From Murinocardiopsis flavida (GTDB lineage Bacteria; Actinomycetota; Actinomycetes; Streptosporangiales; Streptosporangiaceae): a stretch of 64,000 nt of DNA. Below, piece after piece: positions 15,168 to 56,880 of the stretch; positions within the stretch are counted from its first letter, which is position 1, and each line of letters begins with the position of its first letter. Where the stretch lies: the NCBI RefSeq assembly GCF_003014485.1, contig NZ_PYGA01000024.1, positions 1 to 64,000 on the forward strand. Direction: 5' to 3'. The position numbers and the translations under genes were made by a program. The notes under the pieces were generated by a model. That model was not told where the DNA came from, did no database searches, and saw only the letters and a program-made list of their open reading frames with translations.

Positions 15168-18100
15168 CGCTGCCCGTCCCGCGCCCGCCACGACAACGCA
15201 GCCGCACGTGCGAGGCGCCGGCAGGCGCGTTCGCTGTCCCGGCCGACCCCCAGGGCGCGGATGTGGTGCATGTGGAGCAGCGATTCGAGCACGGTGTCCC
15301 CTCCGGACGGGGAGCACAGGCGCCGGTAGGTGTCGAGTGCTTGCCGGCGCGTGTGCCAGGTGGCGAGGAGGTCGTCTCCACCGGGGAGGCCGCGCAGGTG
15401 GGCGAAACCGTGTCGCGGGTTGGCGAGCCGGACCGCCTGATCGGTGACCGCGCGGGGCAGCGGCGGCTTGGGCGGGGCGTGGGGGTGGTCGATGATGTAG
15501 GCGATGCCCGCCGCGGTACTGCCGGTGAACGCCGCAGCGGTGTGGATCATGGCGGCCGCCGCGAGGACGCGTCGATCCGCGGCCGAGTCGGGCACCTCCA
15601 CCCATTGGGTGAGAAGGGCGGCGGAGTCGGCGGTGAACACGATCTCCGCGGCTCGCATGGCCGGGCCGTTCCCGTACCGGCCGATTTCGGGGAGGTAGGT
15701 CGCGAACTCAAGGCCGTTGATCAGGCCATCCCGGCGTAGCCGTTCCGCCCAGAACCCGATGACGGCGGTGTAGGTGCCGTGGGTGAGGGGGCCGGTGACG
15801 CGGATACGCAGGCGCAGGTGGTCCTGTTCGTGGGGGGACCGGTACCGGAGGAACCACCACTGCGGGGTCCCGCCGATGAGCCGTAGCAGGAGCGGGAGGT
15901 GGGTGGCCAGGATCTCGTCGTGGCGGTCCGGGTGGGCATAGATCTTGGCGTAGAGCCATTCCGACCGCTGGCCGCCGGGCAGGTGCCCGTGGTCGGCGCG
16001 GATCGGCACCAGCGCGCGCCCGCCGGCGAGCGGGGAGGGGGCCGGCGCCCGGGTGGAGACCAGGGGGGCGGCGACCTCGTGGGCGTGGCCGTCCACCCAC
16101 CCCAGCCCGGCCGGGTCGGCGGCCTCGGTCAGCACAGCGGGCCCGGCGGTGTCCAGGTGGGTGCGGAGGAGGACGGCGTGGGCGGGCTCGGCGAGGTCCA
16201 GGCGCAGCACTCGGTCTTGGTCCCGCAGCTCCACTTCGTCGGGCATGCGCCACTGCCGCTGCCACTGGTGCAGCTCGCGATACCAGTTCTCCCACCCGGC
16301 CCCGGCGGGAGGCAGGTTGGTCGGGTCGAGGTTCCACCGGGCGGGGGACAGGACGCAGCGCCGGTAGCGCACACGCGGCAGGTGAGGCAGGGTCGAAGCG
16401 GCACCCCAGTCGAACCGGGTGTAGGTCGCGCTGAGCGCTCGGGGCAGGTTGATGAGGAACCGGGCCAGCGGCGGCAACTGTTTAACCAGGTCCAGGCCGT
16501 GGAACACCAGCGGCTCCACGACGCGCTGGCGGGACACCGACACCAGGTGGAGCCGGTCCCGGTCGGCGGTCACCGCGAGGTCATCAAGCGGAATTGCCCC
16601 TTCGTCGGCCTCACGGTGTTCACCGAGGGAGATGAGGTGGGGGAGGAACTGCGGGGTGCGGGACACGTTCTCGGCGTGGGGGTAGGCCGGGGGGACGCAC
16701 ACCTGGGCAGGGAGGGCACCGGCGGTGGCGGTGGGCAGACCGGCGTAGAGCGCGGCCAGGTCACTGGCGGCGTCGGTGAACCGGCCGGTCATGGTCCCGG
16801 CGGCGCGGGCCGGCGACACGGTGAGCGTGAACTCGCCCGCCTCGATCGCCTCCAGTGAGGCCGCGTGGATACGGGCGCTGATCTCCAGGTGCGGCGGCAC
16901 CGCCACAGCGCGCATGTCCCCGGCGGCGAGTCGGGTGATCGTGTCCTCATCGAGCACGATCTCCCCGGTCCCATCCATCGCGGCCTGCTGCACCAGTGCC
17001 AGCAGGCGGGTGTCGCGGCCGGAGTCGGGGAGGGGCGGTTCCGCCGGGGTGAACGGCGCTCCTGGGTAGCCGGTGGGGTACCCGAGTCCGGTGTCGGGGT
17101 TCACCACGTCGGTGAGGGGGACGAGGGTGCCGGTGCCGTAGCGGGCGAGGAACGCGGCGTGGTAGGCGCGCCACACCGGCGCACCGTGAGGGGTAGCGCC
17201 CAGGCGCAGCAGTGCCCAGGCTGCCGCTTCCATCTCCTCGGCGACGGCGGGGGGAAGTTCTACATCGCAGTCCAGGTGCAGATCGACCGTGAGCGGGGTG
17301 CGCGATGCCTGCGACAGGCCGCGCATCCGCCGGACCAGGGAATCCCGGAGAGGGCCGAGACGCTCGGGCGCGGCGCCGTTGTGCTGGTCCACTCCGGCGT
17401 GGACGGAGCGCAACTCGCTGACCAGGTCGGCCACAGGCACCGGGGGGTTGGCGCCGAGCGTGTCGATCTGGTCGAGCACGTGCGCCAGCGCATCGGTGGC
17501 GGTGCCGGGGGCGCGGAGGTTGCTGACGAGGAAGCCCTGGTGCAGGAGTTCGGTGAGCATTCCCGCGACCGTCGCATCCGCGACGCCGGGGAACTCGGCG
17601 CCGACCTGGTCGGCCAGGGCGGCGAACCGGATGGGGGCGGTGGCGGCGCGCTCGACCGCGCGTACTGCCGAGGTGCGCCGGATCTGCACCTGGCCGGACC
17701 CGTGAGGGTGGAGCAGGTGGTTGCCCCGCCTGGTGCACAGGGTGCTCAGCACCACGGTGAGGTCATTGAGCAGCTCGGGGCTTGCTTCGAGCTGGGTGAC
17801 GATGTCGGTGACCCACCGGGTATCGGCGCGGGCACGGGGGCGGTGGTCGCGGCCCCATCGCACCTTGGTTCTAGTGCCGAGCGCGACCGGTGCAGCGCCC
17901 GCGAAGGTTCCGAAAGGGGTCGGGCGCCCGGTCTCGCGGAGCAGGTAGCGGGTGAGCGCGGTGGCGGCGCGGCGAATGTCCTTCTCTGTGGCCTGGTTCC
18001 CGGTGGTGATCTCGCCGATTCGACGGGCGAGGGAAGGGCTGGCAAGGGTGACGGCCTCGACGGTGTCGGGCCGGGACCACATTTGCCCCACCCACGCCCG

Positions 18101-43867: not shown

Positions 43868-46366
43868 GTGAGACGTGGACTCCGCCAAGCCGGCGCCCTG
43901 CTGGTGACCATCGCCCTGCTGGCCGGGCTGCCGTATGCGGCCACTGTCCCGCTGGCCTGGCCCACCCCGGAGCTGAGCTGGGTGAGCGTGCTGGCCTACC
44001 TACGTGGGGGTTCGCTGCCCCCGGGCGTCGCTACCGCGGCTCTCATCACCGGGCTCTGGGCGGTGTGGGGCCTCCACCTCCTCGCCCTGCTCACCGAACT
44101 CACGGCACGGCTGCGCGGTCACCCAGTTCGTACGCGCATGTTCGGCCCGCTGCAACTCCTAACCGCCACAGCGATCGGCGCCGCCCTGACCGCTCCGCCC
44201 GCCCACGCCGCCACCCCACCCGGGCCCGCAGAAGCCGAACCAGACACCGCGAACGCCGCCCCTGCCGCACAGCACGCGAACCCCGGCGCCGCCGAGCAGG
44301 ACGTCCCGCACTCCTCAGGCCGCCTCGTCGAACGCGAACGCGTCATCGACGGGTTCGTCTACGACTCCGCCGCCCTCACCCCGGACATGGAAGAGGACCT
44401 GAAGCCGACGATCGACATGATCCGCACCCACGGCAGCACCCGCGCGCCCGTCGTCGTCACCGGACACACCGATGCCGCCGGCGCCTCCGACTACAACCGC
44501 GACCTCTCCCAGCGCCGCGCCGACGCAGTAGCCCAGCACCTACGAAGCCAACTCGGGGACACCGCACCCGTCGTGCAGACCCGCGGACTCGGCGCCGACC
44601 ACCTCCTCGACGGCGCCCCGGATACCGTCCAGCGCCGTGTGGACATCTCCTACGCCCTCACTGCCTACCCTTCCCCCGAGCCCACACCGCCCCGGGAAAC
44701 CCCGAAGCCCGACTCCGCACCAGCGCAGCAGGAGCAGAACGGAGCCGGAAGCGACGAGCGGCGGGCCGTCCTCGTGCTGGAGTTGCCCGGCGGGCTGCTG
44801 CTCACTGCCACGGCCGCCGCCGGCGTCCTGGGCGGCTTCGCACTCGGACGCCGCCGCAACCGCACTTCAGCGCACCCTGAGGAAAAGGATGAAGTATCGG
44901 GCGCGAACCCCGGCGCGCACACCGAGGTCACGGACGCCGAAACGCCGCCCCCGGATGCCGTGATCCCGGACTCCACAATCGATCCCCGGGCCATCGTCGA
45001 CCTGCGCAACGGGGTCGGGATCACCGGCCCCGGCGCTCACGCCGCCGCCCGCAGCCTGCTGGCCACCGCACTGCACCCCGACGAGACGCCACTGCACGTG
45101 ATCATCCCGTCCGGCGACCTGGGCCTGCTGCTGGGAGACGAGGGAGCCGCCTACCTCGCCGAGCACGCCACCCCCGCAGTCACATCAACCGCCTCACTTG
45201 ACGCGGCCATTACCGTGCTGCACACCGAACTCCTGTCCCGCGTCGACGGCGATGCCGACGACGAGACCCAGCCCGAATCGGAGACCGCAGAAGAGGAGAC
45301 GGCGCCATTCCTCCTCCTGGCCACCCCCACCCCGGAGCACACACCCGAGATCACCACCTTGCTCGGCCAGGCCGACGCCAGCGCCATCAGCGCCGTGCTG
45401 CTCGGTGACTGGCCCGGCGGCACCTGCACCATCGACAGCACGCACACCATCACCGAAGCCAGCCCACCCCTGGCACATCTCCTCAGCGCCCACTGGCCCG
45501 CTACCGGCCGCGACCACTTCCGCACGCTCATCTCCGACCTGCCACCCCGCACCCCCAGCGGCCAGAGCACCGCCTCCAATCCGCCAAGTCCCACCCCCGC
45601 CCCCGCGCAACCCTCCAGCGGCCAGCCGGCCCAAGAAACTCCAGCGCCGACCACCCTGCGCGTGCTCGGCCGCATCACCCTCACCGCCGACGGGCAAGCC
45701 CTCACTCTGCGCCGCCGCTCCGCCTTCGAGGTGGCCGCTTATCTCGCCACCCGCCCTGACGGCGTCCGGATGGAGCGCGCCATCGAGGACATGTGGCCGG
45801 GAGAGAACGCGGCCCGCGCCACCCGCCGCTTCCACGACGCCACCAGCGCCCTGCGCACCGCCCTGCGCCCGTTCCTCGGAGAGCAGAGCCCGGCTGTTCT
45901 GCACGAGAACGACCTCTACCGGCTCAATCCCGAGAGCGTCGACGTCGACTTGCGACACATGGAAGCGGCACTGAGCACAGCCGAAGGCGACACGCGTGAA
46001 GAGGCGGCCAAGGCACTGGCGCCCATCCTGGAGCACTACGGGGACTTCGCCGAGGAGGCCGGCTACGCCTGGGCCGAAGAACCCCGGTCGCGTTTGCGCC
46101 GCCGCCTCATCGACGCCGCGGTGCGCTGCGCCGACCAATGCGGCCACGACGCGGCCCGCGCGCTCCTGGCCAGGGCCGCCGTCATCGACCCCCATCACGA
46201 ACCGGTTCACCTAGAACTCATCCGGCTCCACCTCGACACCGGCGACACCCGCGCCGCCGCAGAGGTCTACCAGGCCCACAAAGACGCGCTGCACGAGATC
46301 GGTGTCGAACCGGGAAGGCGAATTCGCGACCTGGTCAGCACCTCATCGGATAATTCTCTCCGATAG
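43868..46366 (+). CDS. Membrane protein with OmpA-like domain and C-terminal BTAD domain
   Basis: The 832-aa protein has two membrane segments near the N-terminus and a third ending in an Ala-rich AHAA site (about residue 110). An OmpA-like domain (about 157-262) contains VVVTGHTDAAGASDYNRDLS QRRADAV. Another membrane segment follows (LLLTATAAAGVLGGFAL, about 300-320). The long cytoplasmic part ends with a SARP-like winged helix (LRVLGRITLTADGQALTLRR, from about 597) and a BTAD domain (about 690-830). Related actinomycete proteins usually have LysM in place of OmpA. The layout suggests that peptidoglycan sensing is coupled to control of the Tad operon. GTG 43868 is the start. Confidence 0.8.
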   Translation: MRRGLRQAGALLVTIALLAGLPYAATVPLAWPTPELSWVSVLAYLRGGSLPPGVATAALITGLWAVWGLHLLALLTELTARLRGHPVRTRMFGPLQLLTATAIGAALTAPPAHAATPPGPAEAEPDTANAAPAAQHANPGAAEQDVPHSSGRLVERERVIDGFVYDSAALTPDMEEDLKPTIDMIRTHGSTRAPVVVTGHTDAAGASDYNRDLSQRRADAVAQHLRSQLGDTAPVVQTRGLGADHLLDGAPDTVQRRVDISYALTAYPSPEPTPPRETPKPDSAPAQQEQNGAGSDERRAVLVLELPGGLLLTATAAAGVLGGFALGRRRNRTSAHPEEKDEVSGANPGAHTEVTDAETPPPDAVIPDSTIDPRAIVDLRNGVGITGPGAHAAARSLLATALHPDETPLHVIIPSGDLGLLLGDEGAAYLAEHATPAVTSTASLDAAITVLHTELLSRVDGDADDETQPESETAEEETAPFLLLATPTPEHTPEITTLLGQADASAISAVLLGDWPGGTCTIDSTHTITEASPPLAHLLSAHWPATGRDHFRTLISDLPPRTPSGQSTASNPPSPTPAPAQPSSGQPAQETPAPTTLRVLGRITLTADGQALTLRRRSAFEVAAYLATRPDGVRMERAIEDMWPGENAARATRRFHDATSALRTALRPFLGEQSPAVLHENDLYRLNPESVDVDLRHMEAALSTAEGDTREEAAKALAPILEHYGDFAEEAGYAWAEEPRSRLRRRLIDAAVRCADQCGHDAARALLARAAVIDPHHEPVHLELIRLHLDTGDTRAAAEVYQAHKDALHEIGVEPGRRIRDLVSTSSDNSLR

Positions 46367-47097
46367 AACCCCACCGATGTGTGTACAGCCATTATTCTGA
46401 GATTCGAGACTGAGCAATATCCGTCTGGTCGTGTTCGCCGAAGAACGAAGCCAACATATCGGTACTCCAGTTCCACAAGTATTTCCTGGCTGTAGAGCGA
46501 TGGGCCCAAGTTTGCGTCTTTGTTTTTGATTCTTTCGGTTATTAGGAATGTGCTGACTATCGGGGAACGATACTGTTCTTGTTCGTCGTGCTAATGGTGT
46601 CCGTGTCCCCCTCTGATGGGCACTCGATTCGCTGGCCGTTCCCTCGGCCCGTATGACCGACCACCCCTGATTCCAGAACAGACCTGGTCAGGGCTTCGTT
46701 GGCTTGGTCGGTGCGCTGCCCGACAGGTGCGAAGCTTCAAGAAAACTCTCCTGGTGGTGGATGCTGACGGGTCGTTTAGAGCTTCGTTTGCATTTCTCTG
46801 GTTGCGAAATTTCCATTTTTGTCGGTTGCCCCTGGAAGTCTTCCTGTCCCCGTATTCTACTCTCGTTCCTTCCTTTGTCTTTTGTTGTCGACGCTCTCCC
46901 CTTGTTCTCCTCTTCCTTAATGACTGCGGATTGGTTGGGTGTTCACTCGGCCGTGGGAGTGCGAGTGTTCTGACTCGGCGCTGATTCTATGGCTGCAAAA
47001 AGGGTGGACCAATTCCAGTGTGCGGCGTTAATTGATCTTTCAGTGCGGGTATGAATGCCAATGACCAAGCAAACGGAACTGTTCGAGGAGGGCACTC
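46367..47097. other. Boundary region without a supported gene
   Basis: About 730 bp, much less GC-rich than its surroundings. A 122-codon + strand frame at 46616-46984 has an unlikely amino-acid mix (many Cys, Phe and Arg runs) and is not accepted. I see no tRNA, terminator or clear repeat. It separates the Tad operon from the conjugative-element genes and could hold an element end. Confidence 0.4.
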
Positions 47098-47388
47098 ATG
47101 TCCTGGTTTGGCCTTTGGCATGGCGGGTCCGGGTATTCGTACTCTGACGCGAGCCACATGGAGCGCTTCCGCTCGCTCGCAGACGTCGCCGACGCACTGA
47201 AGTCGCGTTTCCACGGCGCGAACTGGCGGCAGGAATTCGACTACGTAGCACGCGACCCCGAACGCGTCTTCACGCCCGGTGTCGACGAAACGAGCTACAT
47301 CGACCTGTACCGCTCCGCCGACGCTGACCTGTCGTGCATCGAGCGTCGCGCCTACTTCGGCCCGCGCGGCGGCGTTCGATTCGAGTAA
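47098..47388 (+). CDS. Hypothetical protein, 96 aa
   Basis: It begins MSWFGLWHGGSGYSYSDASH and has SLADVADALKSRFHGANWR and a C-terminal strand-rich end. GAGGAGG stands 7 nt before the ATG. I recall similar small proteins on actinomycete plasmids and integrative elements, but no function is known. Confidence 0.6.
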   Translation: MSWFGLWHGGSGYSYSDASHMERFRSLADVADALKSRFHGANWRQEFDYVARDPERVFTPGVDETSYIDLYRSADADLSCIERRAYFGPRGGVRFE

Positions 47389-47432
47389 CCCCACCCTGTT
47401 CTTCGAAATGCCGTTCATGCCTGAGGTGTGCC

Positions 47433-47792
47433 ATGTCGACGTTCGTTATTGAGAAATTCACGCCCGAAATCCACACGCTGATCATCGCCCCCGCCGGCGT
47501 CTGCCCGGACATGCGGGAACGCTGGTCCTATGAGCTGTTCTGCGATGACCGCCTGATCTTTGCCGGGTCCGATCTCGGTAGCCCTTCCGGGGTCACCGAA
47601 GACGAAGTTGCCGCCCACGCGCTGCTGTGGCTCACGCTGCAACCCGGGGACACCGACGAAGAATACTTCGCCGACTACACGCCCGACCAGCGCGCATGGT
47701 GCGCAGAGAACGCAGAAACTCTGTCGATGTGCCTGTATGACGAAAACGGGTCCGACGTAATGGACCTGTCCCCGTACCGGGTCGAGGACTAG
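47433..47792 (+). CDS. Hypothetical protein, 119 aa
   Basis: The acidic protein starts MSTFVIEKFTPEIHTLIIAP and has WSYELFCDDRLIFAGSDLG and a helical C-terminal half (EYFADYTPDQRAWCAENAE). ATG 47433 follows TGAGGTG. No family is recognised. It probably belongs with the small accessory genes of the element. Confidence 0.6.
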   Translation: MSTFVIEKFTPEIHTLIIAPAGVCPDMRERWSYELFCDDRLIFAGSDLGSPSGVTEDEVAAHALLWLTLQPGDTDEEYFADYTPDQRAWCAENAETLSMCLYDENGSDVMDLSPYRVED

Positions 47793-47799
47793 GAACCCA

Positions 47800-47833
47800 G
47801 GGGCGCGCCGCCTGGAAATAGTCGGCGCGCCCC
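47800..47833. terminator. GC hairpin after the 119-aa gene
   Basis: GGGGCGCGCCG and CGGCGCGCCCC form a perfect 11-bp stem with a 12-nt loop, 8 nt after the stop codon. Confidence 0.6.
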
Positions 47834-47932
47834 GCCTCCCCGGTCCGGGATCCGTTCCGGATTCGCACCACACGCGATGTGAACCCCGATCGGATCCCGA
47901 ATGGGACGCGACCCGAAATTCGGTGATGCGAG

Positions 47933-48073
47933 ATGAGCGACGCGACCGTTTTCCATGTGGACTATCCGCATGCCCCCGGGATGCTCTACGGCTGCTGGGC
48001 GTGCGAGTCGCAATGCCATTGCGACGACGGGTTCACGTGCATCCACTGCGGCCCAGAAGATGAGGAGGAATGA
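47933..48073 (+). CDS. Cys-rich mini-protein, 46 aa
   Basis: The frame reads MSDATVFHVDYPHAPGMLYG, then CWACESQCHCDDGFTCIHCG and an acidic end. Six Cys in CxxC, CxC and CxxC spacing and two His form a likely double zinc knuckle. The stop is 4 nt before the start of the ArdC-like gene, and its last codons GAGGAGGAA supply that gene's ribosome binding site, so the two are coupled. Confidence 0.6.
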   Translation: MSDATVFHVDYPHAPGMLYGCWACESQCHCDDGFTCIHCGPEDEEE

Positions 48074-48077
48074 TCAC

Positions 48078-48971
48078 ATGGGTTCACGGAAACACGCGCT
48101 GACACCGGAACAGCGACAAGAACGCCTCAAAGCCGCGCACGACCGCCTATCGGACGCCGTAGACGGACTGCTCACCTCCGACGGCTGGCGCGCAATGATC
48201 ACGGCCCGCTCGTGGCTGCGCCGCTACTCGCTCAACAACGTCATGATGATCATCTCCCAACGCCCCAACGCGAGCGACGTTCGATCGTTCTCGCAGTGGA
48301 AGGACACCGGGCGCCACGTCCGCAGAGGCGAAACGGGCATCCGGATCTTCGCGCCGTGCCGCTACAAGGCGCGCGACGACGACGGCAACACCGAAACCGA
48401 CGACACCGGCCAGCCGCGATACCAGGTGCGCGGATTCACGTTGGTCAGCGTCTTCGACGTCTCCCAGACCGACGGCGACCCCCTTCCCGCCGACAACGGA
48501 GCCGTACCCCAGGAACTGCACGGCGCCGCCCCCGAACAGTTGCGGGACGGCATTGCCGCCCAGATTCGGGCACGCGGCTTCACCGTGGAGCGCGGGGACT
48601 GCGGAGACGCCTACGGCTGGGTCCGGTGGGATACCCGCACTGTGCGCGTGCGCGCCACCGTCGATGATGCCCAAGCCGTCAAGACGCTGGTTCACGAGTT
48701 GGCGCACATCGCGTGCGAACACGAACAGCGCAGCGCCACCACGCCCCGCGCGCTGTGCGAGGTCGAAGCCGAATCGGTGGCGTGCGTGGTGGCAGCGGTG
48801 GCCGGACTGGACTCCTTGGCCTACTCGGTGCCCTACGTCGCCCATTGGGCCGGGACTGCCGAGACCGCCCGTGCCAGCGCTGAACGCGTCCTGAGAGTCG
48901 CCGATGAGGTCGTGAGCGCGTTGGAGTCCTCCGCAGCCACGCAGACCCCCCGCGCCGCGAACGCGGCGTAA
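48078..48971 (+). CDS. ArdC-like ssDNA-binding protein with metallopeptidase domain
   Basis: The 297-aa protein has an N-terminal ArdC-type domain: LTSDGWRAMITARSWLRRYS, LNNVMMIISQRP and FSQWKDTGRHVRRGETGIRI are its hallmark segments. A zinc-peptidase domain follows with the HExxH-like motif LVHELAHIACEH (about residue 208). ArdC proteins on conjugative elements bind single-stranded DNA and protect incoming DNA from restriction; the peptidase part resembles ImmA/IrrE enzymes. It is a strong sign of a conjugative element. Confidence 0.85.
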   Translation: MGSRKHALTPEQRQERLKAAHDRLSDAVDGLLTSDGWRAMITARSWLRRYSLNNVMMIISQRPNASDVRSFSQWKDTGRHVRRGETGIRIFAPCRYKARDDDGNTETDDTGQPRYQVRGFTLVSVFDVSQTDGDPLPADNGAVPQELHGAAPEQLRDGIAAQIRARGFTVERGDCGDAYGWVRWDTRTVRVRATVDDAQAVKTLVHELAHIACEHEQRSATTPRALCEVEAESVACVVAAVAGLDSLAYSVPYVAHWAGTAETARASAERVLRVADEVVSALESSAATQTPRAANAA

Positions 48972-48975
48972 GAAC

Positions 48976-48989
48976 CCCAGCCCCTCACA
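48976..48989 (+). repeat. CCCAGTCCCTCAC box, copy 1 (variant, no hairpin)
   Basis: CCCAGCCCCTCACA lies 39 nt before the ATG at 49015. It is one base different from the box found in four later gaps and lacks the GGACAG-loop hairpin. Confidence 0.6.
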
Positions 48990-49014
48990 TCAATCGAGCA
49001 GAAGGGAAGAACCG

Positions 49015-49536
49015 ATGACCACGCTGATTCATACCGGCATGCAGGTCCCCACGGACCGGATCCGGGTCACCCGCCTGGACCAGGTCGACATCGGCGTTGG
49101 CGTCGCCTGGTCGGCCGTGGTGCGCAACGGGCGTACCAAGCTCGGCGTCATCGCCAATGACGGGCGCATGGGCTCACAGTTCCACCCCGTCGACCTCACG
49201 GCTCAGCAGGTGATGCGCGACTTCGTTGCCCAATGCCGCGACCGCGCCGGGGAACCACTCAACGAGGAGTTCGTCATAGACGAGCTTGCCAATGAGTACG
49301 AGATCGCCGCGATCGTCACCCAAACAGAGCGCAAGAAGAAGTACGTCGCGCGCGGGTTCGACCAGCACGGCATCCCGGAACTCCAGACGTTCGCCCTCAC
49401 CGGCGACGGCCCGCTTGATTACGCGGCGGCGCTGGCCGCAGCCCCCAATCTCGACCTGAACGCGCGCACGGTGCGCGCCGAGCTGTGGATGGGTCCCCGG
49501 GGCTGGGTCGAGTTCTACCAGCGCCACGACACCTAA
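49015..49536 (+). CDS. Hypothetical protein, 173 aa
   Basis: It begins MTTLIHTGMQVPTDRIRVTR and has VAWSAVVRNGRTKLGVIAND, LNEEFVIDELANEYEIAAIV and a C-terminal GPRGWVEFYQRHD. It looks like a small alpha/beta protein. No family is recognised, although similar genes accompany ArdC and DnaN paralogues on actinomycete elements. GGGAAG precedes the ATG. Confidence 0.6.
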   Translation: MTTLIHTGMQVPTDRIRVTRLDQVDIGVGVAWSAVVRNGRTKLGVIANDGRMGSQFHPVDLTAQQVMRDFVAQCRDRAGEPLNEEFVIDELANEYEIAAIVTQTERKKKYVARGFDQHGIPELQTFALTGDGPLDYAAALAAAPNLDLNARTVRAELWMGPRGWVEFYQRHDT

Positions 49537-49577
49537 CCCGAGCCGCGCTGAGACCGCGCGGCACGTCAGGCGCGCAC

Positions 49578-49631
49578 GGGGTGGGGCGGCCGGGACAGCG
49601 GCCGGCCCACCCCGGACCCCAGTTCCTCACA
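49578..49631 (+). repeat. GGACAG-loop hairpin plus CCCAGTCCCTCAC box, copy 2
   Basis: A 15-bp stem with one mismatch (49578-49592 with 49599-49613) encloses the loop GGACAG. CCCAGTTCCTCACA follows at 49618-49631, exactly 33 nt before GTG 49651. Confidence 0.8.
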
Positions 49632-49650
49632 CACCGCGAAAGGAACCCCC

Positions 49651-49983
49651 GTGGCTGTGCTCACGGTCGAGATCTTCGCCCACGCCCCCGAGGACACCGA
49701 CCCCGACACGTTCCCGCCCGATGCCTTCATCGAGACGACGTTGCGCGACGCGATCGCGCCGCTGACCGGGACCCCCGAGAGCGCGCTTCCCGTACTCACC
49801 TGCGCGATCACCCCTTACGGGGGTGCCGCGATGGTCGAAGCGCTGTGCGTGGGCCCCTCCGGGGAGGAGGCGACCGACGTCATCGCCGCACGCCTGGAAG
49901 CGGCCATGCAGGACACCCCCGACGCCTTCGAGGGCTGGCACCTGCACGCCGGATGCACCCACGTGCACATGAGCGACAACTAG
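49651..49983 (+). CDS. Hypothetical protein, 110 aa
   Basis: It begins with a strand (AVLTVEIFAHAPEDTDPDTF) and has a Cys-containing middle (LPVLTCAITPYGGAAMVEAL) and C-terminal WHLHAGCTHVHMSDN, with three His and a Cys that could bind metal. GTG 49651 follows AAAGGAA. Function unknown. Confidence 0.55.
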   Translation: MAVLTVEIFAHAPEDTDPDTFPPDAFIETTLRDAIAPLTGTPESALPVLTCAITPYGGAAMVEALCVGPSGEEATDVIAARLEAAMQDTPDAFEGWHLHAGCTHVHMSDN

Positions 49984-49990
49984 TCCTGCC

Positions 49991-50041
49991 GGGGCGGGTC
50001 GGACAGGGCCCGCCCCCACACGAGGAACCCAGTCCCTCACA
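49991..50041 (+). repeat. GGACAG-loop hairpin plus CCCAGTCCCTCAC box, copy 3
   Basis: GGGGCGGGTC and GGCCCGCCCC (49991-50000 with 50007-50016) pair with one T-G wobble around the loop GGACAG. CCCAGTCCCTCACA is at 50028-50041, 34 nt before GTG 50062. Confidence 0.85.
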
Positions 50042-50061
50042 CCCGATGGGAGAACCCCCCC

Positions 50062-50667
50062 GTGTTTCCTGTACTCAGCATCAACGGCACCCCCGCCCCC
50101 TGCGACGACGAGACCGAATCGGCCGCACTGGACTTCAACCCCGACAGCGGCCCCACCCACCGGTGCCGTGCCTGCGGCGACGAGTTGACCCGCACCATGA
50201 CGGGCTGGGTAACCGACGACGGCGACGGCGCGTGCCTCCTGTTCGAGCCCGACGACGACACCGGCCATGAGCAGACCGGCCCCCACGACCCGGCGCCGAT
50301 CCCGTTCGCCTGGTGCAACTCCGCCGCGATCACCACGGAGGAGTCCGACGACGCGGTCACCGTCGCGTTGTCCGTCGGCGACCCGCGAGGCGCGTTCTGC
50401 TTCACCGTGACGCGCATCCCCGACGACGCCGAATCCGACTTGGCCGGCTGCCTGCTCCTGCACACCCCGCACCCCGGCGAGCCCGCCCCGCACGCGGCCC
50501 TGACCGAACTGCACCCCGGAACCTACGTCGTCGGGACCGTGCCCGCCGCGCTCGCCCCCCGAATCACCCGCACTGGATCGGAGGAACACCACCATGACCA
50601 CTACCAACGACCCCACCGCCCCGGCGTCCGCGCCAACCTTCACCACCAGCCGCGCCGTACTCGCTGA
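50062..50667 (+). CDS. Hypothetical protein, 201 aa, with CxxC
   Basis: The acidic protein carries THRCRACGDELTRTMTGW, a single CxxC knuckle, early on, and a strand-rich domain (DDAVTVALSVGDPRGAFCFT). The last 25 residues, rich in His and Arg, are the overlap with the clamp gene in another frame (50594-50667), a long 74-nt overlap. No family is recognised. Confidence 0.55.
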   Translation: MFPVLSINGTPAPCDDETESAALDFNPDSGPTHRCRACGDELTRTMTGWVTDDGDGACLLFEPDDDTGHEQTGPHDPAPIPFAWCNSAAITTEESDDAVTVALSVGDPRGAFCFTVTRIPDDAESDLAGCLLLHTPHPGEPAPHAALTELHPGTYVVGTVPAALAPRITRTGSEEHHHDHYQRPHRPGVRANLHHQPRRTR

Positions 50668-51796
50668 CGCACTGGCCACGGTCGGACTCGCGATCAGCAC
50701 GCGCCCCGCCGTCCCGCTCCTGGGCGCCGTCCTGCTGGAAGGGCGCGACGACGGGCGGCTCACCCTCTCCGGCTTCGATTACGAGACCGTGATCACGGTC
50801 ACGATCCCCGATGCCGCAACCGTTGCCGGGCGCGTGCTCATCGACCACTCTGAAACCGTCCGGGTGCTTTCCGCGCTGGTCAAGGGCAAGAGCAAGCGCC
50901 AGGCGGACGCGACCCCGGTGACCATCACGGCACCGGCCCCCGACGCCCCGCGTATGAGCGTCAACGGCTACACCGTCCCCGTGACGGCCTATCCGCTCGG
51001 CGACTACCCGACCCTGCCCGACGCGCCGCCGCCGGTCGCACAGTTCAACCGGGGCGCCTTCACCGCGGAGCTGGGGCGGGTGCTGTGCGCAGTCGGCGAC
51101 GACGTCACGCTTCCCACCTTGACCGGCGTGAACATGGAACTCAGCGACCAGGGGCTCACGCTGGCCGCGACCGACCAGCATCGGTTGGCCGTGGCCCATG
51201 TGCCCACCGTGCCCGGTTCGGCCGCGGCGCCCAGCACGATGCTGGTGCTGGGGTCGCTGCTCGACAAGGTCGCCAAGAAGCTCACGGGCGAACATCTCAC
51301 CCTGGGCCATGACCGCGGCCTGGTGTCGCTGTCCAGCGGCGCCGTCACGGCGGTGACCCGCCCGATCGGCAGCGCGTTCGTCAAGTACCGCGCGCGTATC
51401 CCCAGTCCGCCCGCCTCGTTCACCGCCGACCGTGCCGCCCTGCTGGCGCTGGTCGAGCAGGCGCAGGCGATCTCGAAGGCCAAACGGGAGGCCAATCCGC
51501 TGGTCACCATAACCGTGGACGCGGGCGCCCTGGTGGTCGCGCCGTTGCTCTCGGAGCGCTCCACCGACGTCGCACCCCCCGAGTTGACGGCGAAGACCGA
51601 CGGCTACCCGAACGCAATCCGGTTCGCGTTCAACCCGGCATACCTGACCGATGCGCTTGCCGCGATCACCGGTGACACCGCCACCGTGCACACCCAGACC
51701 ATCCCGACCAAGCCGGTCGTGATCACCGAGACCGGGGCGCGCCCCGGCGACGGCACCGCCTACCGGCACGTGCTGATGCCCGTCCGCCTGTCCTAA
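50594..51796 (+). CDS. DnaN-like sliding clamp (DNA polymerase III beta paralogue)
   Basis: The 400-aa protein has the three-domain clamp layout: FTTSRAVLADALATVGLAIS and PAVPLLGAVLLEGRDDGRLT in domain 1, LTLAATDQHRLAVAHVP in domain 2, and FNPAYLTDALAAITGDTATV and HVLMPVRLS at the end of domain 3. The C-terminal MPVRL matches the conserved (M/L)P.R(L) of beta clamps. It diverges from chromosomal DnaN and sits among element genes, so it probably serves replication or transfer of the element. A good GGAGG precedes ATG 50594. Confidence 0.87.
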   Translation: MTTTNDPTAPASAPTFTTSRAVLADALATVGLAISTRPAVPLLGAVLLEGRDDGRLTLSGFDYETVITVTIPDAATVAGRVLIDHSETVRVLSALVKGKSKRQADATPVTITAPAPDAPRMSVNGYTVPVTAYPLGDYPTLPDAPPPVAQFNRGAFTAELGRVLCAVGDDVTLPTLTGVNMELSDQGLTLAATDQHRLAVAHVPTVPGSAAAPSTMLVLGSLLDKVAKKLTGEHLTLGHDRGLVSLSSGAVTAVTRPIGSAFVKYRARIPSPPASFTADRAALLALVEQAQAISKAKREANPLVTITVDAGALVVAPLLSERSTDVAPPELTAKTDGYPNAIRFAFNPAYLTDALAAITGDTATVHTQTIPTKPVVITETGARPGDGTAYRHVLMPVRLS

Positions 51797-51803
51797 CCCG
51801 CCC

Positions 51804-51858
51804 GGTGGGGGCCGGTCCGGACAGGGACCGGCCCCCACCTCCTTCCCAGTCCCTCACC
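51804..51858 (+). repeat. GGACAG-loop hairpin plus CCCAGTCCCTCAC box, copy 4
   Basis: GGTGGGGGCCGGTCC and GGACCGGCCCCCACC form a perfect 15-bp stem (51804-51818 with 51825-51839) around GGACAG. CCCAGTCCCTCACC is at 51845-51858, 34 nt before ATG 51879. The hairpin starts 8 nt after the clamp stop. Confidence 0.9.
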
Positions 51859-51878
51859 GCCACGGACGGAGGCCCGTC

Positions 51879-52799
51879 ATGCCCGACTCCAGGAAGACGA
51901 ATCGTCAGTCCCAACGTGGGCGCACCGTGGACGAGCACGCCCATGCCATCGCCGATGCCGTCGACACTGCGTGGCATCGCGCCCACGGGTATGGACACCT
52001 CGAAGTCCCGTTGTCCGTCATCGCCGCGTTGGCGTTCCTCGCGCCGCCGTTCAACCAGCGCGGCGCCGTCGCAGTCGAGATCAGCGGCATGGAGAGCGCG
52101 GCGTTCGCGGCGTTCATGCGCCGCCAGTGGCGCGGCTTCGTCACCCTGCGCCCCGACCTGCTCAACCCCGCCGCCCCGCTGCTGCTGGTGTGGCACGGAG
52201 AACACCCCATCACCGGCACCACCCTGGACGCCGCACGCGGTGCGGCGCGCGCGGCGTTGCAGGCGGGACAGCTCCACCTGACCGGGGATCGCGAAACGCG
52301 CTGGCAGGTCGACCTGTTCGGGGTGCTGCTCACCCTGATGAAGGGCCGCAACGCCAAGGGCGCGCACGGCCAGTTCTACACGCCCAGCCCGCTCGCCCAC
52401 CTCATGGCCGCGATGCTCGGCATCGCTGCCGGCGAGACCATTCATGAGCCGGCCGCGGGCACCGGCGGGATGCTGCGCGCCGCCGCCCAGGTCATGCGCG
52501 AGGCCGACCGCGACCCCGCCACGGCAACGTGGGTCGCCAACGACATCGACCCCTTGGCGGTCGCGTGCCTGGCCGTCAACGCCGTGTTGTGGGAGTTGGG
52601 CCCACGCGTGGTCATCGGCGTGGGCGACACCCTGTCTGATGAGTGGATCACCCGCGCGCTCGCCGAGCGCGCGGAAACCATCCAGATCGCATCCGACATG
52701 CGCCGCCTCCAACAGATGCGCCACGCCTTCGGTCTCTTGCAGCGCCGCACCGACAGCACCGCCCATCAGCAGCCCGACGAGGGCGGTGAGGTGGCGTGA
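51879..52799 (+). CDS. N6-adenine DNA methylase-like protein lacking the NPPY motif
   Basis: The 306-aa protein has an HsdM-like region AKGAHGQFYTPSPLAHLMAA and motif I ETIHEPAAGTGGMLRAAAQV (about 188-207), followed by WVANDIDPLAVACLAVNAVL. After motif I the catalytic (N/D)PP(Y/F) motif is not found: the region reads VGDTLSDEWITRALAERAET. I recall the same lack in similar proteins on actinomycete elements. It may bind SAM or DNA without methylating, for example as an anti-restriction or regulatory factor. Confidence 0.75.
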   Translation: MPDSRKTNRQSQRGRTVDEHAHAIADAVDTAWHRAHGYGHLEVPLSVIAALAFLAPPFNQRGAVAVEISGMESAAFAAFMRRQWRGFVTLRPDLLNPAAPLLLVWHGEHPITGTTLDAARGAARAALQAGQLHLTGDRETRWQVDLFGVLLTLMKGRNAKGAHGQFYTPSPLAHLMAAMLGIAAGETIHEPAAGTGGMLRAAAQVMREADRDPATATWVANDIDPLAVACLAVNAVLWELGPRVVIGVGDTLSDEWITRALAERAETIQIASDMRRLQQMRHAFGLLQRRTDSTAHQQPDEGGEVA

Positions 52800-53143
52800 G
52801 GCGCTACAGCGCAACCATCGACGCGCGCATCCCGGCCGGTCACGACCGCTTCACCGATACCACCAGCCCGTATGCGGCTCACCTGCTGGACCGGCTAATC
52901 GCCTCCACCGCCGTGGCGATCCCGGCGACCCGGGCCTTTCGCATCACCGGCTGGTACGTGGCCCCGCACGCGCGCGGCGCAGTGCTCACCATCGACTGCG
53001 GCGACCGTGACCACACCGCGGCCGGACACGCGGTGCGCGACCTGCTCGACCCCGCCCAACACACCCACGAAGCGCTCTGGGAACCGTTCGCAGCCTGGAG
53101 CTTCACGCTGATCGAACTCCGGGACCACCCCGCCAACACCTGA
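52796..53143 (+). CDS. Hypothetical protein, 115 aa
   Basis: It begins VRRYSATIDARIPAGHDRFT and has FRITGWYVAPHARGAVLTID and WSFTLIELRDHPANT, a small alpha/beta protein. GTG 52796 overlaps the methylase-like stop as GTGA, so it is translated with it. No family is recognised. Confidence 0.55.
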   Translation: MRRYSATIDARIPAGHDRFTDTTSPYAAHLLDRLIASTAVAIPATRAFRITGWYVAPHARGAVLTIDCGDRDHTAAGHAVRDLLDPAQHTHEALWEPFAAWSFTLIELRDHPANT

Positions 53144-53174
53144 CAAGCCCCGACCCGATCGGGAAGGACGACAC

Positions 53175-53828
53175 GTGCGAATACGCCTCAGTGAACGCCA
53201 GCACACCGAACTAACCCATGCCGACACCACCCCCGGCGGACTGTTCCGACCAGAAGCCCCCACCATCACGATCGCCGCGCTGATCGACCTCGGCTACACC
53301 ATGCCCAAGGAATACGGCCAGCCGCACCGCATCACTCGCGCCGGACGCGCCGCCCTGGCCGGCGACGAAGTCGGCGCGCTCACCTGGCAGCGGCTCACCC
53401 CGACCATGCGCGCCGTGCTGTGCGCACTGGCCGACGAGCGCGAGCCCGAGAGCGTCGGCGACGCGCGCGGGGTCAACCCCGCGACGTTCAAACGACTCGC
53501 CGCCGCGGACTACATCGACAACGGCGGACACAACGACGCCGCGCACGCCCGGCTCACCGGCAAGGGCCTCGACGCGGTTCTGCGTATCCGCGGCGAACGC
53601 CCGGCGTTCGCCGAACGCGAGATCACCGAGGTTTATGTGGATGAACTGTGCGTCGGCGATTCCTTCGCCGAGCACGGGCGCCGCTGGATCGTCGCGTTCC
53701 CGCCCGTAGACGGGGGGCGGCGCATCGGCGACATGACCGTGCTCGCCCACGTCGAAAGCGCTGTGGGCGCGGATCCCGACGCGGTACACGCCCTGAGTCT
53801 GCCCGCGGATCGGGCGCTGCCGCGCTGA
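53175..53828 (+). CDS. Hypothetical protein, 217 aa, with winged-helix-like repeats
   Basis: Two segments, IAALIDLGYTMPKEYGQPHR ITRAGRAAL and FKRLAAADYIDNGGHNDAAH ARLTGKGLD, each read helix, turn, strand and T..G, like winged-helix wings of MarR or phage-type regulators. The C-terminal part is beta-rich. GTG 53175 follows GGAAGGA. The role is unknown, perhaps DNA binding. Confidence 0.5.
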   Translation: MRIRLSERQHTELTHADTTPGGLFRPEAPTITIAALIDLGYTMPKEYGQPHRITRAGRAALAGDEVGALTWQRLTPTMRAVLCALADEREPESVGDARGVNPATFKRLAAADYIDNGGHNDAAHARLTGKGLDAVLRIRGERPAFAEREITEVYVDELCVGDSFAEHGRRWIVAFPPVDGGRRIGDMTVLAHVESAVGADPDAVHALSLPADRALPR

Positions 53829-53836
53829 GCAGCAGA

Positions 53837-53893
53837 GCGGGACCGGTCGGACAGGACCGGCCCCGCGTACCACCTGATCCCCAGTCCCTCACA
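53837..53893 (+). repeat. GGACAG-loop hairpin plus CCCAGTCCCTCAC box, copy 5
   Basis: GCGGGACCGGTC and GACCGGCCCCGC (53837-53848 with 53855-53866) pair with one mismatch around GGACAG. CCCAGTCCCTCACA is at 53880-53893, 34 nt before ATG 53914. Confidence 0.85.
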
Positions 53894-53913
53894 AAGAACC
53901 GCAAGGAAAGGCG

Positions 53914-54120
53914 ATGTCCAGGCTAACCTCAGATGCCGCGCCGATGGTAGGGGCGGCGGTCGACCCGGGTGCTGACCGGGTGATGGCGTGGGTGAGCGCG
54001 CCCGGCCACCTCGCCCACCTCATCCCCCTGGCACCGGCCACCGCCCGGCAGTGGGCGGCGCAGTTGCGTCAGGCCGCTGACGCGGCCGACACCCCTCCCG
54101 AAGACGACCAGGGCAAGTAA
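53914..54120 (+). CDS. Hypothetical protein, 68 aa
   Basis: It begins MSRLTSDAAPMVGAAVDPGA and has a helix (LAPATARQWAAQLRQAADAA) at its end. GCAAGGAAAGGCG precedes the ATG. It is the last gene of the + strand accessory block, followed by a strong terminator. Confidence 0.55.
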   Translation: MSRLTSDAAPMVGAAVDPGADRVMAWVSAPGHLAHLIPLAPATARQWAAQLRQAADAADTPPEDDQGK

Positions 54121-54148: not shown

Positions 54149-54183
54149 CGAGGGTCGGCCGGGCTAAGCCCGGCCGACCCTCG
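54149..54183 (+). terminator. Strong terminator hairpin closing the accessory block
   Basis: CGAGGGTCGGCCGGGC and GCCCGGCCGACCCTCG form a perfect 16-bp stem with a TAA loop, 29 nt after the last gene. It is similar in arm composition to the GGACAG hairpins but has a different loop, although GGACAA occurs just upstream. Confidence 0.8.
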
Positions 54184-54281
54184 GGCCGTTCACATCCCTA
54201 GCGACCAAGCAAGGAACTTCGAGGCGGCCAGCGATCAGTTTACCGTGCGCTATCGCCCCCGTCGCGGGCTTAGGAGGCCCA

Positions 54282-54956: not shown

Positions 54957-56018
54957 CTACAACTCTCCGGGGCGGACTGCTCCCATGAACTTCGGCGAGT
55001 AGTAGCTGGAGTCAACAGGGTCGATTCGGATGTTCTTTCCAGTGGAGGGGGCGTTGATCATCTCGCCATCGCCGACGTACATGGTCATATGGGCCGGGGG
55101 AGGTCCGGGGCCGCCGGTGTCGTAGAACAGCAGGTCACCGGGTTGCAGGGCATCCTTGTCGACGCGTTGTCCTGCCTGGTACTGGTCGGTGGTGACGCGG
55201 GGGATGTCGACTCCGGCTGCGGCCCAGGCCTTCATGGTGAGTCCGGAGCAGTCGAACCCGTCAGGTCCGACCCCGCCCCACACGTAGGGCTTGCCGAGGT
55301 GTTGGAGTGCCCATTCGACGGCCTTGCGGCCTTGTGCGCTGCCCGGTCCGCCGTCGGCGATGGGTGGCTGGACATCGAAGGTGTCGATCTCGGCGAGGAC
55401 GTCGGAGACGTAGTCGCGGCTGCGGTTGTAGCGGAACAGGGCGGTGTCGAGTTGGTCGCGGTCGGTGAAGTCGACACCACCCTCCCCGGCGCTGAGGCAC
55501 AGCTCCCGGGCTGATGCGGCGGCGGAGTCGTAGGCGTTGTGCGGGTCCTTGGTGCCGTCGCCGTTGCCGTCGGCCCCGAAGGTGTCCCAGCCGGACGGGA
55601 GGTGTTGGTTCGGGCCGACCGCCCGGTCGTAGGCGGTGTCGCTGTCCCACTTGCCGCTGTCGGTGTCGTAGTGCGGTGTGGTGTTGCCGCCGGTGCCGGA
55701 GCCGTCCAGGCGGGGGCCGATCATCGGTGGGGACACGTCGCCGCTGGGGCTGATGTCGTGGCCGGCAAGCAGGCTCGATTCGATCTTTCCGATGCCCGCG
55801 AGGATCTGCCACCGCATCCCCGGGCACTGGGGTTCGGCGCTCTCCAAGGCTTGTGCGGCGCGCACGTAGGCGTCCAGCAGCGTGTCCGGGATGCCCTTGA
55901 CGTGCGCGGGTGCGGAGGTGGTGTCGCCGTCGTCGAGCACGGCGGTGAATGCGGAGATTGCGAGGCCCAGCACGAGGGGGATGGCAGTGATGGCGGCCAG
56001 GCATCCGGGGCTAGCCAC
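54957..56018 (-). CDS. Cell-wall hydrolase: SLT-like region plus NlpC/P60
   Basis: The 353-aa protein has an N-terminal membrane or signal segment (CLAAITAIPLVLGLAISAF). A lytic-transglycosylase-like region (MRWQILAGIGKIESSLLAGH) contains the catalytic-type Glu of IESS. A C-terminal NlpC/P60 domain has Cys in GFDCSGLTMKAW (about 254) and His in PPAHMTMYVGDG (about 306). Such two-domain enzymes open peptidoglycan for Gram-positive conjugation machines. GTG 56018 follows GGAGG and overlaps the preceding gene by 8 nt. Confidence 0.87.
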   Translation of the reverse strand: MASPGCLAAITAIPLVLGLAISAFTAVLDDGDTTSAPAHVKGIPDTLLDAYVRAAQALESAEPQCPGMRWQILAGIGKIESSLLAGHDISPSGDVSPPMIGPRLDGSGTGGNTTPHYDTDSGKWDSDTAYDRAVGPNQHLPSGWDTFGADGNGDGTKDPHNAYDSAAASARELCLSAGEGGVDFTDRDQLDTALFRYNRSRDYVSDVLAEIDTFDVQPPIADGGPGSAQGRKAVEWALQHLGKPYVWGGVGPDGFDCSGLTMKAWAAAGVDIPRVTTDQYQAGQRVDKDALQPGDLLFYDTGGPGPPPAHMTMYVGDGEMINAPSTGKNIRIDPVDSSYYSPKFMGAVRPGEL

Positions 56019-56880
56019 TGCCGGCCTCCTCCCATCCGGGCAGGAACGGCTGTTGCGGCCCGACATCGGCGAGGTCGACCAGTCGGCGCTGCGTGGAACC
56101 GTCCAGACGGGTCCAGACCATGTCGGCCGGGTGGGCACCATACACCGCGGTCGCGGTTGGCACCGGCGGGTTGGGGACCCGGTGGCGAAGGTTGCTTTCA
56201 CGCGCGGCCGAGGGCAGCCAGAACAGGACGATGCCGCGGGTGCCGGTGATGCGGGCGAGTTCGTGGTAGGCGTCGAGCTTGTCGGCCAGGCGGCGCAAGG
56301 GCTCGGTGCCGGTGTCGTACTCCAGGAAGAAGTCGATGGCCTTGTTGGCGTCGGTCCATCGGCCGGCAGCGTCGGGTCGGACGATGTCGCCGAACTGGTG
56401 CTGGCATTCGCGGGTGGTGCGCCAGGCGAGGTGGGTGTCGTGGGTGCGGGTGTGGGATGTGAGGTCGACGAAGAACTGGTTGAGGCCGAGGGTGTGGGTC
56501 AGGGAGGTCCGGTAGGCGATGGTGAGGGCGCGGTCGCGCTGGTAGCCGAGCTGCTTGACGGTCTGGCCGTGTTCGGCGGCGAGGATTTCCGCGCCGGGGG
56601 AATCGAGGATGTAGTGCCAGGGGGCGGTGCCTACTGGGGTCCAGGGCCGGAACCGGTCCAGGGCTCGCAGCCGGTACAGGACGGGAAGGCGCTTCTTGGC
56701 GGTGTTGTAGGACCCGAACTCCAGCTTCGCCAGCTGGTCGGTGGTGAACACCCGGTGCTGCCACACCAGGCGCATGATGCGCAGGTCGCGGGGGGTGAGG
56801 CGGGCGATGAGCGCGCGGATGGCCTCGGGGGTGGTGCGGGGGCGGACGGGGGCGCGGTGATCGGGCCGGGTGGTGCGCAT
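56011..56880 (-). CDS. Replication-relaxation family protein
   Basis: The 289-aa protein has an N-terminal winged helix with LTPRDLRIMRLVWQHRVFTT DQLAKLEF, then LYRLRALDRFRPW and a nuclease-like C-terminal part containing KAIDFFLEYDTGTEPLRRL. This matches the replication-relaxation (MobC-like) family common on actinobacterial conjugative elements, thought to act at the transfer or replication origin. It lies 14 nt after the VirD4-like gene. Confidence 0.85.
   Translation of the reverse strand: MRTTRPDHRAPVRPRTTPEAIRALIARLTPRDLRIMRLVWQHRVFTTDQLAKLEFGSYNTAKKRLPVLYRLRALDRFRPWTPVGTAPWHYILDSPGAEILAAEHGQTVKQLGYQRDRALTIAYRTSLTHTLGLNQFFVDLTSHTRTHDTHLAWRTTRECQHQFGDIVRPDAAGRWTDANKAIDFFLEYDTGTEPLRRLADKLDAYHELARITGTRGIVLFWLPSAARESNLRHRVPNPPVPTATAVYGAHPADMVWTRLDGSTQRRLVDLADVGPQQPFLPGWEEAGSG

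Follow-up and report, generated by a model that had tools for sequence, protein, structure and literature searches.

Gene array and intergenic modules

The region of interest lies within a 64,000-nucleotide stretch of the Murinocardiopsis flavida genome (hereafter, the window), and contains a co-directional array of genes on the + strand (47098..54120). Gene starts, predicted from open reading frame (ORF) lists and from relatives, lie at 47098, 47334 or 47421, 48078 (ArdC-like), 49015, 49651, 50062, 50594 (beta clamp), 51879 (N6-methylase), 52796, 53175 and 53914. A putative promoter-like block at 47027..47072 (+ strand)—in which GTTAATTGATC, TATGAAT and GACCAAGCAA occur in order—precedes the first array gene; it is kept, with variation, in related arrays, and was not picked up by a sigma-70 scan. 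The array end is marked by a long palindrome (54150–54182) and a second GACCAAGCAA (54203–54212; whole feature 54150..54212, + strand). The ArdC-like, methylase and clamp genes sit beside T4SS and relaxase-like genes, and the array is directed toward the relaxase-like gene (56011–56880). Judging from their sequences, the array genes (ArdC-like, beta clamp, N6-methylase and small unknowns) resemble the establishment genes of a T4SS element.

Four gaps at gene boundaries within the array carry the same two-part module, at the positions given by a first-pass annotation of the window. Each module is ~55–65 nt in size and consists of (i) one hairpin with the loop GGACAG, and (ii) 3' of the hairpin, a 13 nt box of consensus CCCAGTYCCTCAC. 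All lie on the + strand. The first comprises a hairpin at 49577..49614 (loop 49593–49598) and the box CCCAGTTCCTCAC at 49618..49630, which begins 33 nt 5' of the GTG at 49651. In the second, the hairpin (49991..50016; loop 50001–50006) is followed by the box CCCAGTCCCTCAC (50028..50040), 34 nt 5' of the GTG at 50062. The remaining two boxes also begin 34 nt before an ATG: that of module 3 (hairpin 51804..51839, loop 51819–51824, box 51845..51857) precedes the N6-methylase gene at 51879, and that of module 4 (hairpin 53837..53866, loop 53849–53854, box 53880..53892) the ORF at 53914. Predicted RNA folds give, for each of the four, a stem with all six loop bases unpaired; the gain in folding energy over shuffled sequence is only modest (z of -2.1, -1.5, -3.1 and -1.3). 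The GC-strong hairpins come after stop codons. A variant box, CCCAGCCCCTCAC, lies at 48976..48988 (+ strand), 39 nt 5' of the ATG at 49015. This box had been annotated as hairpin-less; it does lack the GGACAG hairpin, but RNA folding places another short hairpin, with a different loop, ahead of it.

The combination of loop and box is rare by chance. Every + strand GGACAG-loop hairpin in the window (four in all, with pairing at 8 or more of the 10 flanking positions) is followed by a box, and boxes with up to two mismatches number 16, against 4.9 ± 2.1 expected. The comparison with shuffled DNA that the first-pass annotation had proposed favours a real element: no module arose in 200 dinucleotide shuffles of the window (one strand counted), against the four real copies. 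Genome-wide, the loop-plus-box pattern is confined to these four sites.

Distribution of the module and comparison with known elements

The module was found in the homologous gene arrays of four further genomes (G213, G040, G057 and G115), giving 20 usable copies over five genomes, each of a different genus. Eighteen of these stand on the sense strand 5' of a start codon; the other two lie 5' of the last gene, the start codon of which has been lost in G213 and G040. Across 16 related arrays with 110 gene starts, a box is present at 19 of 19 starts with a loop hairpin versus 6 of 91 without one (loop and box 19, loop only 0, box only 6, neither 85). In this count, the last gene of G213 is included among the 19 in spite of its lost start codon, and copy L026 13544, for which the gene start was not located, is among the 20 copies and outside the 19 starts. 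In L026, two gaps that contain G and C runs, one with a box near 16400 and one with a box at 15602, may be assembly artefacts; they were kept out of the 20 copies and entered as box without loop. Box-to-start spacing is 32–35 nt at 15 of the 19 loop-bearing starts of the five arrays, and 25, 30, 39 and 50 nt at the other four. The fixed 33–34 nt first described thus holds within the window, but widens to 25–50 nt over the arrays of relatives.

In the eleven other related arrays there is no GGACAG-loop hairpin and at most a degenerate box. Inspected gaps of these module-free arrays contain intercistronic GC hairpins that, like those read in the phage-plasmid phiM2, resemble the module in position and in kind of stem, the gaps in the related arrays being homologous. 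They differ in having unrelated loops and no box, save for degenerate boxes 5' of the 49651 homologue in G131, G036 and G189 and a two-mismatch box in G076. A covariance model built without G057 recovered two of the three G057 modules in the family scan, and all three with laxer filters, which also returned weak matches outside the arrays (E 0.001–0.1). Matches of the model in G112 and G495 proved to be ordinary hairpins with neither loop nor box. Pattern matches in viral contigs were taken as chance, since twelve have only 0–3 pairs around GGACAG and one more lacks a convincing hairpin.

Relatives of the methylase and clamp on Streptomyces plasmids have no module, nor do the four loci read in phiM2, and DNA searches of plasmids and phages returned no match or short partial ones only. 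A search of plasmids with the 49651 protein found no relative; a 53175 profile picked out a single relative among genome contigs (S. mangrovi, the G040 element), and viral contigs and plasmids yielded none. The modules match no Rfam 15 family, even with the cut-off relaxed to E <= 1; elsewhere in the 40–60 kb part of the window there are two sub-threshold Rfam matches. Among the scanned genomes, the module is restricted to one kind of element.

The module belongs to neither of its nearest known kinds. The first are the start-associated repeats of actinobacterial phages, described since 2011 and with a role called unclear. In cluster K mycobacteriophages, a conserved 13 nt sequence (SAS, consensus GGGATAGGAGCCC) lies 5' of many gene starts, mostly in one orientation and usually 3–9 nt from the start, often with an inverted repeat upstream; the extended form, ESAS, has conserved 17 bp inverted repeat arms, a variable spacer and scant evidence of pairing as RNA, and was later reported to contain SigA-like promoters (PMC3203893, PMC11373665, PMC12699233). 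The module shares with these a conserved 13 nt sequence before many starts of one actinobacterial mobile element. It was set apart from SAS/ESAS on three counts: (i) its box reads CCCAGTYCCTCAC rather than GGGATAGGAGCCC, (ii) the box lies 25–50 nt upstream, not 3–9 nt, and (iii) its arms vary and covary around a fixed 6 nt loop, the reverse of conserved arms around a variable spacer.

The second is EGeRS1 of the pLS20 family of Bacillus plasmids: repeated structured sequences of 420–750 bp, rich in inverted repeats, one immediately 5' of each of several establishment operons, including ardC, which lacks a strong sigma-A promoter upstream in pLS20; the mechanism is given as unknown (PMC8708921). 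Both EGeRS1 and the module are repeated structured sequences ahead of establishment-type genes. Unlike EGeRS1, the module has a single hairpin and a box and stands at gene boundaries, not before operons; its small size and lack of multiple repeats excluded it from that family. The initial statement that no element of this form had been described is not contradicted by our literature searches, in which the box letters occur in three unrelated papers; SAS/ESAS and EGeRS1 are nonetheless of the same general kind.

Stem covariation and selection

Alignment of 17 copies demonstrates that the stems change while pairing is kept. Paired cells make up 85.2% of the stem, versus 66.1 ± 2.3% in shuffled alignments, and double changes occur in 9 of the 12 stem pairs; compensatory changes, which the first-pass annotation had proposed looking for, are therefore present. 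The covariation score is 0.489, compared with 0.174 ± 0.028 for shuffled alignments and no more than 0.132 for slid registers. Over 190 pairs of copies, identity is 96.7% in the loop and 91.9% in the box, and 52–66% in stem plus linker. Each feature of a bipartite structured element—covarying helix, conserved loop and linked conserved box—is thus present. Very recent duplication, the other explanation raised at the outset, is excluded because similarity between copies that occupy equivalent positions in different genomes (0.655, 27 pairs) exceeds that between copies sharing a genome (0.547, 33 pairs).

These comparisons make selection on the folded strand, the loop and the box well supported at the level of sequence. 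The first-pass annotation had argued for selection on RNA structure and a binding site; the covarying stems, the spread over five genera and the co-occurrence of loop and box bear out the selection, but not the choice of molecule. Stem mismatches are equally divided between G-T (11) and A-C (11), with at least one aligned row (L026 13544) in the wrong register, so the stems do not show RNA, rather than single-stranded DNA, to be what folds.

Readings of the module

Since it is kept by selection, the module, which stands before many of the genes in a rare conjugative element, probably represents a new, small RNA element with a control function. More specifically, we propose a bipartite intercistronic RNA element in which loop and box are read as a unit, most simply by pairing with each other; we give this a little under an even chance. 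The placing of hairpin and box between co-directional genes, with a promoter-like block ahead of the array, supports it. One long mRNA would begin at that block, 5' of 47098, and each module would fold just 5' of the next ribosome-binding site. With the extent of the initiating ribosome's footprint as a guide, the box (about -34 to -22) would lie beside the ribosome's 5' edge. Loop GGAC(A)G could then pair directly with C(R)GUCC of the box to form a compact, pseudoknot-like structure, which would separate adjacent cistrons and set the translation or stability of the following gene. Establishment-type genes could in this way be expressed and exchanged singly. Co-regulation of the conjugative element's accessory genes, as first suggested, would fit such an arrangement.

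Statistically, the evidence for loop-box pairing is only suggestive. The loop can pair with the box at five of six bases: the four GGAC/GUCC pairs are all standard in 19 of 20 copies (the other has a G-U), loop position 6 pairs with box position 3 in 19 of 20, and the purine-variable box position 4 stands opposite the unpaired loop A. An equally good match in both measures is found for 2.9% of all hexamers; by energy alone, pairing is as good for 3.7% of hexamers, 5.9% of shuffled boxes and 17% of loop permutations. No compensatory loop-box change occurs among the 20 copies, and the two departures in the loop, AGACAG (L025 13857) and GGACAC (L025 10818), are uncompensated. Linkers become shorter as stems lengthen (rho -0.55), contrary to what pseudoknot geometry would predict, and pairing does not explain the invariant TCA at box positions 10–12. 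The full version of the idea—an undescribed pseudoknot-like RNA device, with GGACAG pairing to CRGUCC, acting as a portable insulator or translation setter for each of many independently translated establishment-like genes—is unlikely. Masking of the Shine-Dalgarno sequence by the box was rejected because the two are predicted to pair no better (mean 0.456) than when the box is permuted (0.453 ± 0.103, with 73 of 150 permutations reaching the real value).

Alternatively, a single RNA-binding protein, of either element or host origin, could contact the module at both loop and box and so co-regulate translation, processing or antitermination. One common type of protein site combines an invariant box with an invariant loop on a variable stem, and the module has this form; its confinement to one kind of element among the scanned genomes also agrees. 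Two proteins tracked the module in a comparison of those encoded by the window's array and a few from relatives: the 217-aa 53175 protein occurs in four of five module-bearing genomes and none of 11 module-free relatives, and the 115-aa 52796 protein in the window, G213, G040 and G057, being absent from G115 and from 11 stretches of about 11 kb. Yet the 53175 protein is missing in G057 and interrupted in G213, both of which keep good modules, just as G115 does without the 52796 protein. Winged-helix-like elements in the structural model of 53175 are of low confidence (mean pLDDT 63), and the model matches nothing in the PDB at E <= 0.001. We regard the protein-site reading as unlikely.

An arrangement of terminator plus promoter, in which the upstream transcript would stop at the hairpin and the box would serve the next gene as core promoter or operator, would suit strong GC hairpins after stop codons, and the SigA-like promoters of ESAS offer a parallel. 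It is improbable on several grounds. Judged by T-run, no hairpin of the four resembles a terminator, and the four gaps hold no site resembling the sigma-70 consensus, which leaves both the intrinsic terminator and the sigma-70 promoter among the originally listed roles unsupported. The loop-to-box distance runs from 16 to 27 nt, and a variation of 11 nt means that the two are not a -35/-10 pair; the box is C-rich, and the stems change freely, unlike a DNA site.

Folding might also occur in the single DNA strand entering a recipient, driving or priming early expression of establishment genes. Frpo/ssi single-stranded promoters act in leading regions, where their folds carry -35 and -10 elements (PMC11541004); like them, the module is a folding element 5' of anti-defence and methylase genes of conjugative elements. 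ArdC-like, methylase and clamp genes beside T4SS and relaxase-like genes would suit a leading region, the array aims at the relaxase-like gene near which an oriT may be guessed, and the equal G-T and A-C counts are compatible with folded DNA. A scan for the sigma-70 consensus, however, finds no -35/-10 sequence in the four module gaps, and the strand transferred in pLS20 is the non-template strand (PMC8708921). This reading is quite improbable.

Lastly, the box could be a homology patch for exchanging array genes, with no role in expression: the hairpin 3' of the 49651 gene stays in place as the next gene changes from 50062 (window) to the beta clamp (G213) or the 53175 gene (G115), but 13 bp is short for homologous recombination, and such a role would account neither for the loop and the covarying stem nor for where the box lies with respect to start codons, making this very improbable.

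To the start-associated repeats known so far, the module adds clear covariation, matched module-free relatives and a simple hypothesis of loop-to-box pairing. Should the pairing device exist, a conjugative element could swap anti-defence genes with their neighbours undisturbed. The genes that the module precedes resemble establishment genes (anti-restriction, methylase), and a conjugative element's survival in a new host can hinge on the timing of such genes.

The module and its genetic setting

Re-examination of the window bore out the first-pass annotation's account of four hairpin-plus-box sites. Each module consists of a hairpin with a variable stem and a GGACAG loop, followed by a 13-letter box upstream of a gene start. 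A whole-genome pattern scan found the four in the window and none elsewhere in the genome, while 200 shuffled windows contained no module at all.

The modules lie within a co-directional gene array (47098–54120) that encodes, in order, two small proteins, an ArdC-like protein (PF08401), 49015, 49651, 50062 (bare numbers are start coordinates), a beta clamp (PF00712), an N6 methylase (PF02384), 52796, 53175 and 53914. Adjoining it on the opposite strand are T4SS and mobility genes—TrwB/TraG-like, TraC/TraG ATPase and PrgI, plus a weak TrbL match under its cut-off—and a Replic_Relax gene (56011–56880). We take array and neighbourhood to be a putative conjugative element. An 832-aa protein with OmpA-like and BTAD domains is encoded upstream of the array (43868–46366), and is kept in relatives' genomes G213 and G115.

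Distribution, conservation and linkage of loop and box

Pattern and covariance-model scans of actinobacterial genomes revealed modules in four relatives: G213, G040, G115 and G057. Among 297 genomes of the order, seven gave pattern matches, four of which (the window's own, G213, G040 and G115) carry real modules in homologous arrays; the relatives' loci contain six (L025, G213), three intact (L026, G040) and four (L027, G115). Single matches in G142, G146 and G173 were rejected, with only 0–1 pairs flanking the loop. A covariance model built from 17 module copies matched six of 341 family genomes at E ≤ 0.001: the four known bearers, G057—a fifth true element, with three modules in total—and G112, an ordinary hairpin. 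Among 396 phylum-drawn genomes (E ≤ 0.001), the same model matched the window's own and, besides it, a single ordinary hairpin; among 394 class-drawn genomes (E ≤ 0.0001) it matched G000 and G040 alone. The genome draws overlap, and the strict filters of the large scans miss weak matches.

The stem analysis proposed in the first-pass annotation revealed strong covariation. Loop and box are 96.7% and 91.9% identical, respectively (190 copy pairs), the variable box positions being 1, 4 (A/G), 7 (C/T), 9 and 13. Very recent duplication had been named as a possible origin of the copies; outside loop and box, however, identity is 65.5% between same-position copies across genomes (27 pairs), as opposed to 54.7% within one genome (33 pairs) and 52.4% for other pairs (130). 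Since same-position copies are the most alike, the modules already existed before these elements diverged, and recent duplication does not account for them.

A protein profile search found 49651 homologues in 16 of the 341 family genomes, 11 of which lack the loop hairpin; in the gaps inspected, these module-free arrays have hairpins with unrelated loops, or none. A degenerate box occurs in module-free G131, G036 and G189, and a two-mismatch box in G076. In the 16 arrays, which have 110 gene starts between them, the box is present at 19/19 starts with the loop hairpin versus 6/91 without (P about 2e-16, the starts being non-independent). In the five module-bearing arrays alone the counts are 19/19 and 4/30. 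Gaps holding another kind of hairpin have the box in 2/54 cases. Loop and box thus behave together, as a unit. The six loop-less boxes are (i) the 48976 box of the window, (ii) two in G040, (iii) a single box in G131 and another in G076, and (iv) a G213 box that lies 58 nt upstream of 52796, probably within the methylase gene. The G040 pair falls in gaps with long G and C runs and no readable loop hairpin (L026 minus strand, near 15602–15740 and 16400–16430); the runs may be artefacts of assembly where hairpins are strong.

Transcription, array borders and possible gene exchange

No sigma-70 site was found at the window's modules, and none of their four hairpins is terminator-like. Before the first array gene is a promoter-like block, in which GTTAATTGATC precedes TATNAAT with some variation, and after it comes GACCAAGCAA; block and 10-mer stand in this place in the window, in the four relatives with modules (G213, G040, G115 and G057) and in several arrays without the module. 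From these sequences we infer a single long transcript, in which the modules would lie between cistrons. GACCAAGCAA flanks the array in the same orientation (47063–47072, at the promoter-like block, and 54203–54212, past the array end), and both copies are also found in G213, G040, G115, G057, G045 and G066. It may be an operator, part of an oriT, or an array-exchange site.

The hairpin 3' of the 49651 gene is retained (gaps at window 49983–50062, L025 13429–13496 and L027 15004–15098), while the following gene is 50062, the beta clamp or the 53175 gene, depending on the element. This pattern suggests that array genes are exchanged at the box. The 53175 homologue is interrupted in G213 (L025 10137–10779). 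The last array gene has lost its start codon in G213 (L025) and G040 (L026), with the preceding module intact.

Candidate mechanisms and known parallels

Possible pairing between loop and box ranks first among the candidate mechanisms. GGACAG could pair with C-R-GTCC of the box at five of six bases; 19 of 20 copies have all four standard core pairs, and 19 of 20 pair loop position 6 with box position 3. The match is equalled by 2.9% of random hexamers, but shuffling the box also gives as good a pairing energy in 5.9% of cases, and permuting the loop in 17%; the two departing loops have no compensating box change, and a stem-linker geometry test of the pairing failed. Shine-Dalgarno masking by the box did no better than permuted boxes. 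The 53175 and 52796 proteins each occur in four of five module bearers and in none of the 11 non-bearers (for 52796, none of the 11 non-bearer stretches). Since G057 lacks 53175 and G213 has it in interrupted form, and since G115 lacks 52796, both are candidate partners only. The predicted 53175 structure (low confidence) resembles winged-helix proteins, with no significant PDB match.

The nearest published parallel is the SAS/ESAS repeats of cluster K mycobacteriophages, for which the authors describe little support for RNA pairing of the repeats and, in later work, SigA-like promoters in ESAS are reported (PMC3203893, PMC11373665, PMC12699233). Nearest in genetic setting is EGeRS1 of pLS20: repeated structured sequences before ardC and further establishment operons, with an unexplained mechanism and no strong promoter upstream of ardC (PMC8708921). 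The module lacks the testable defining features of Frpo-like promoters (PMC11541004). Phage-plasmid phiM2 of Streptomonospora litoralis (L081) carries a different repeated element: seven copies of an AT-rich, promoter-like 58-nt repeat, placed in gaps ahead of ArdC/methylase-region genes. In the membership tests run, the module passed solely that for the general class of a covarying helix with a conserved loop and a linked box.

Literature searches found no account of the two-part element, which is apparently undescribed. It is real and under selection, with a narrow distribution among the genomes scanned, and is a putative control element most likely acting at the RNA level.
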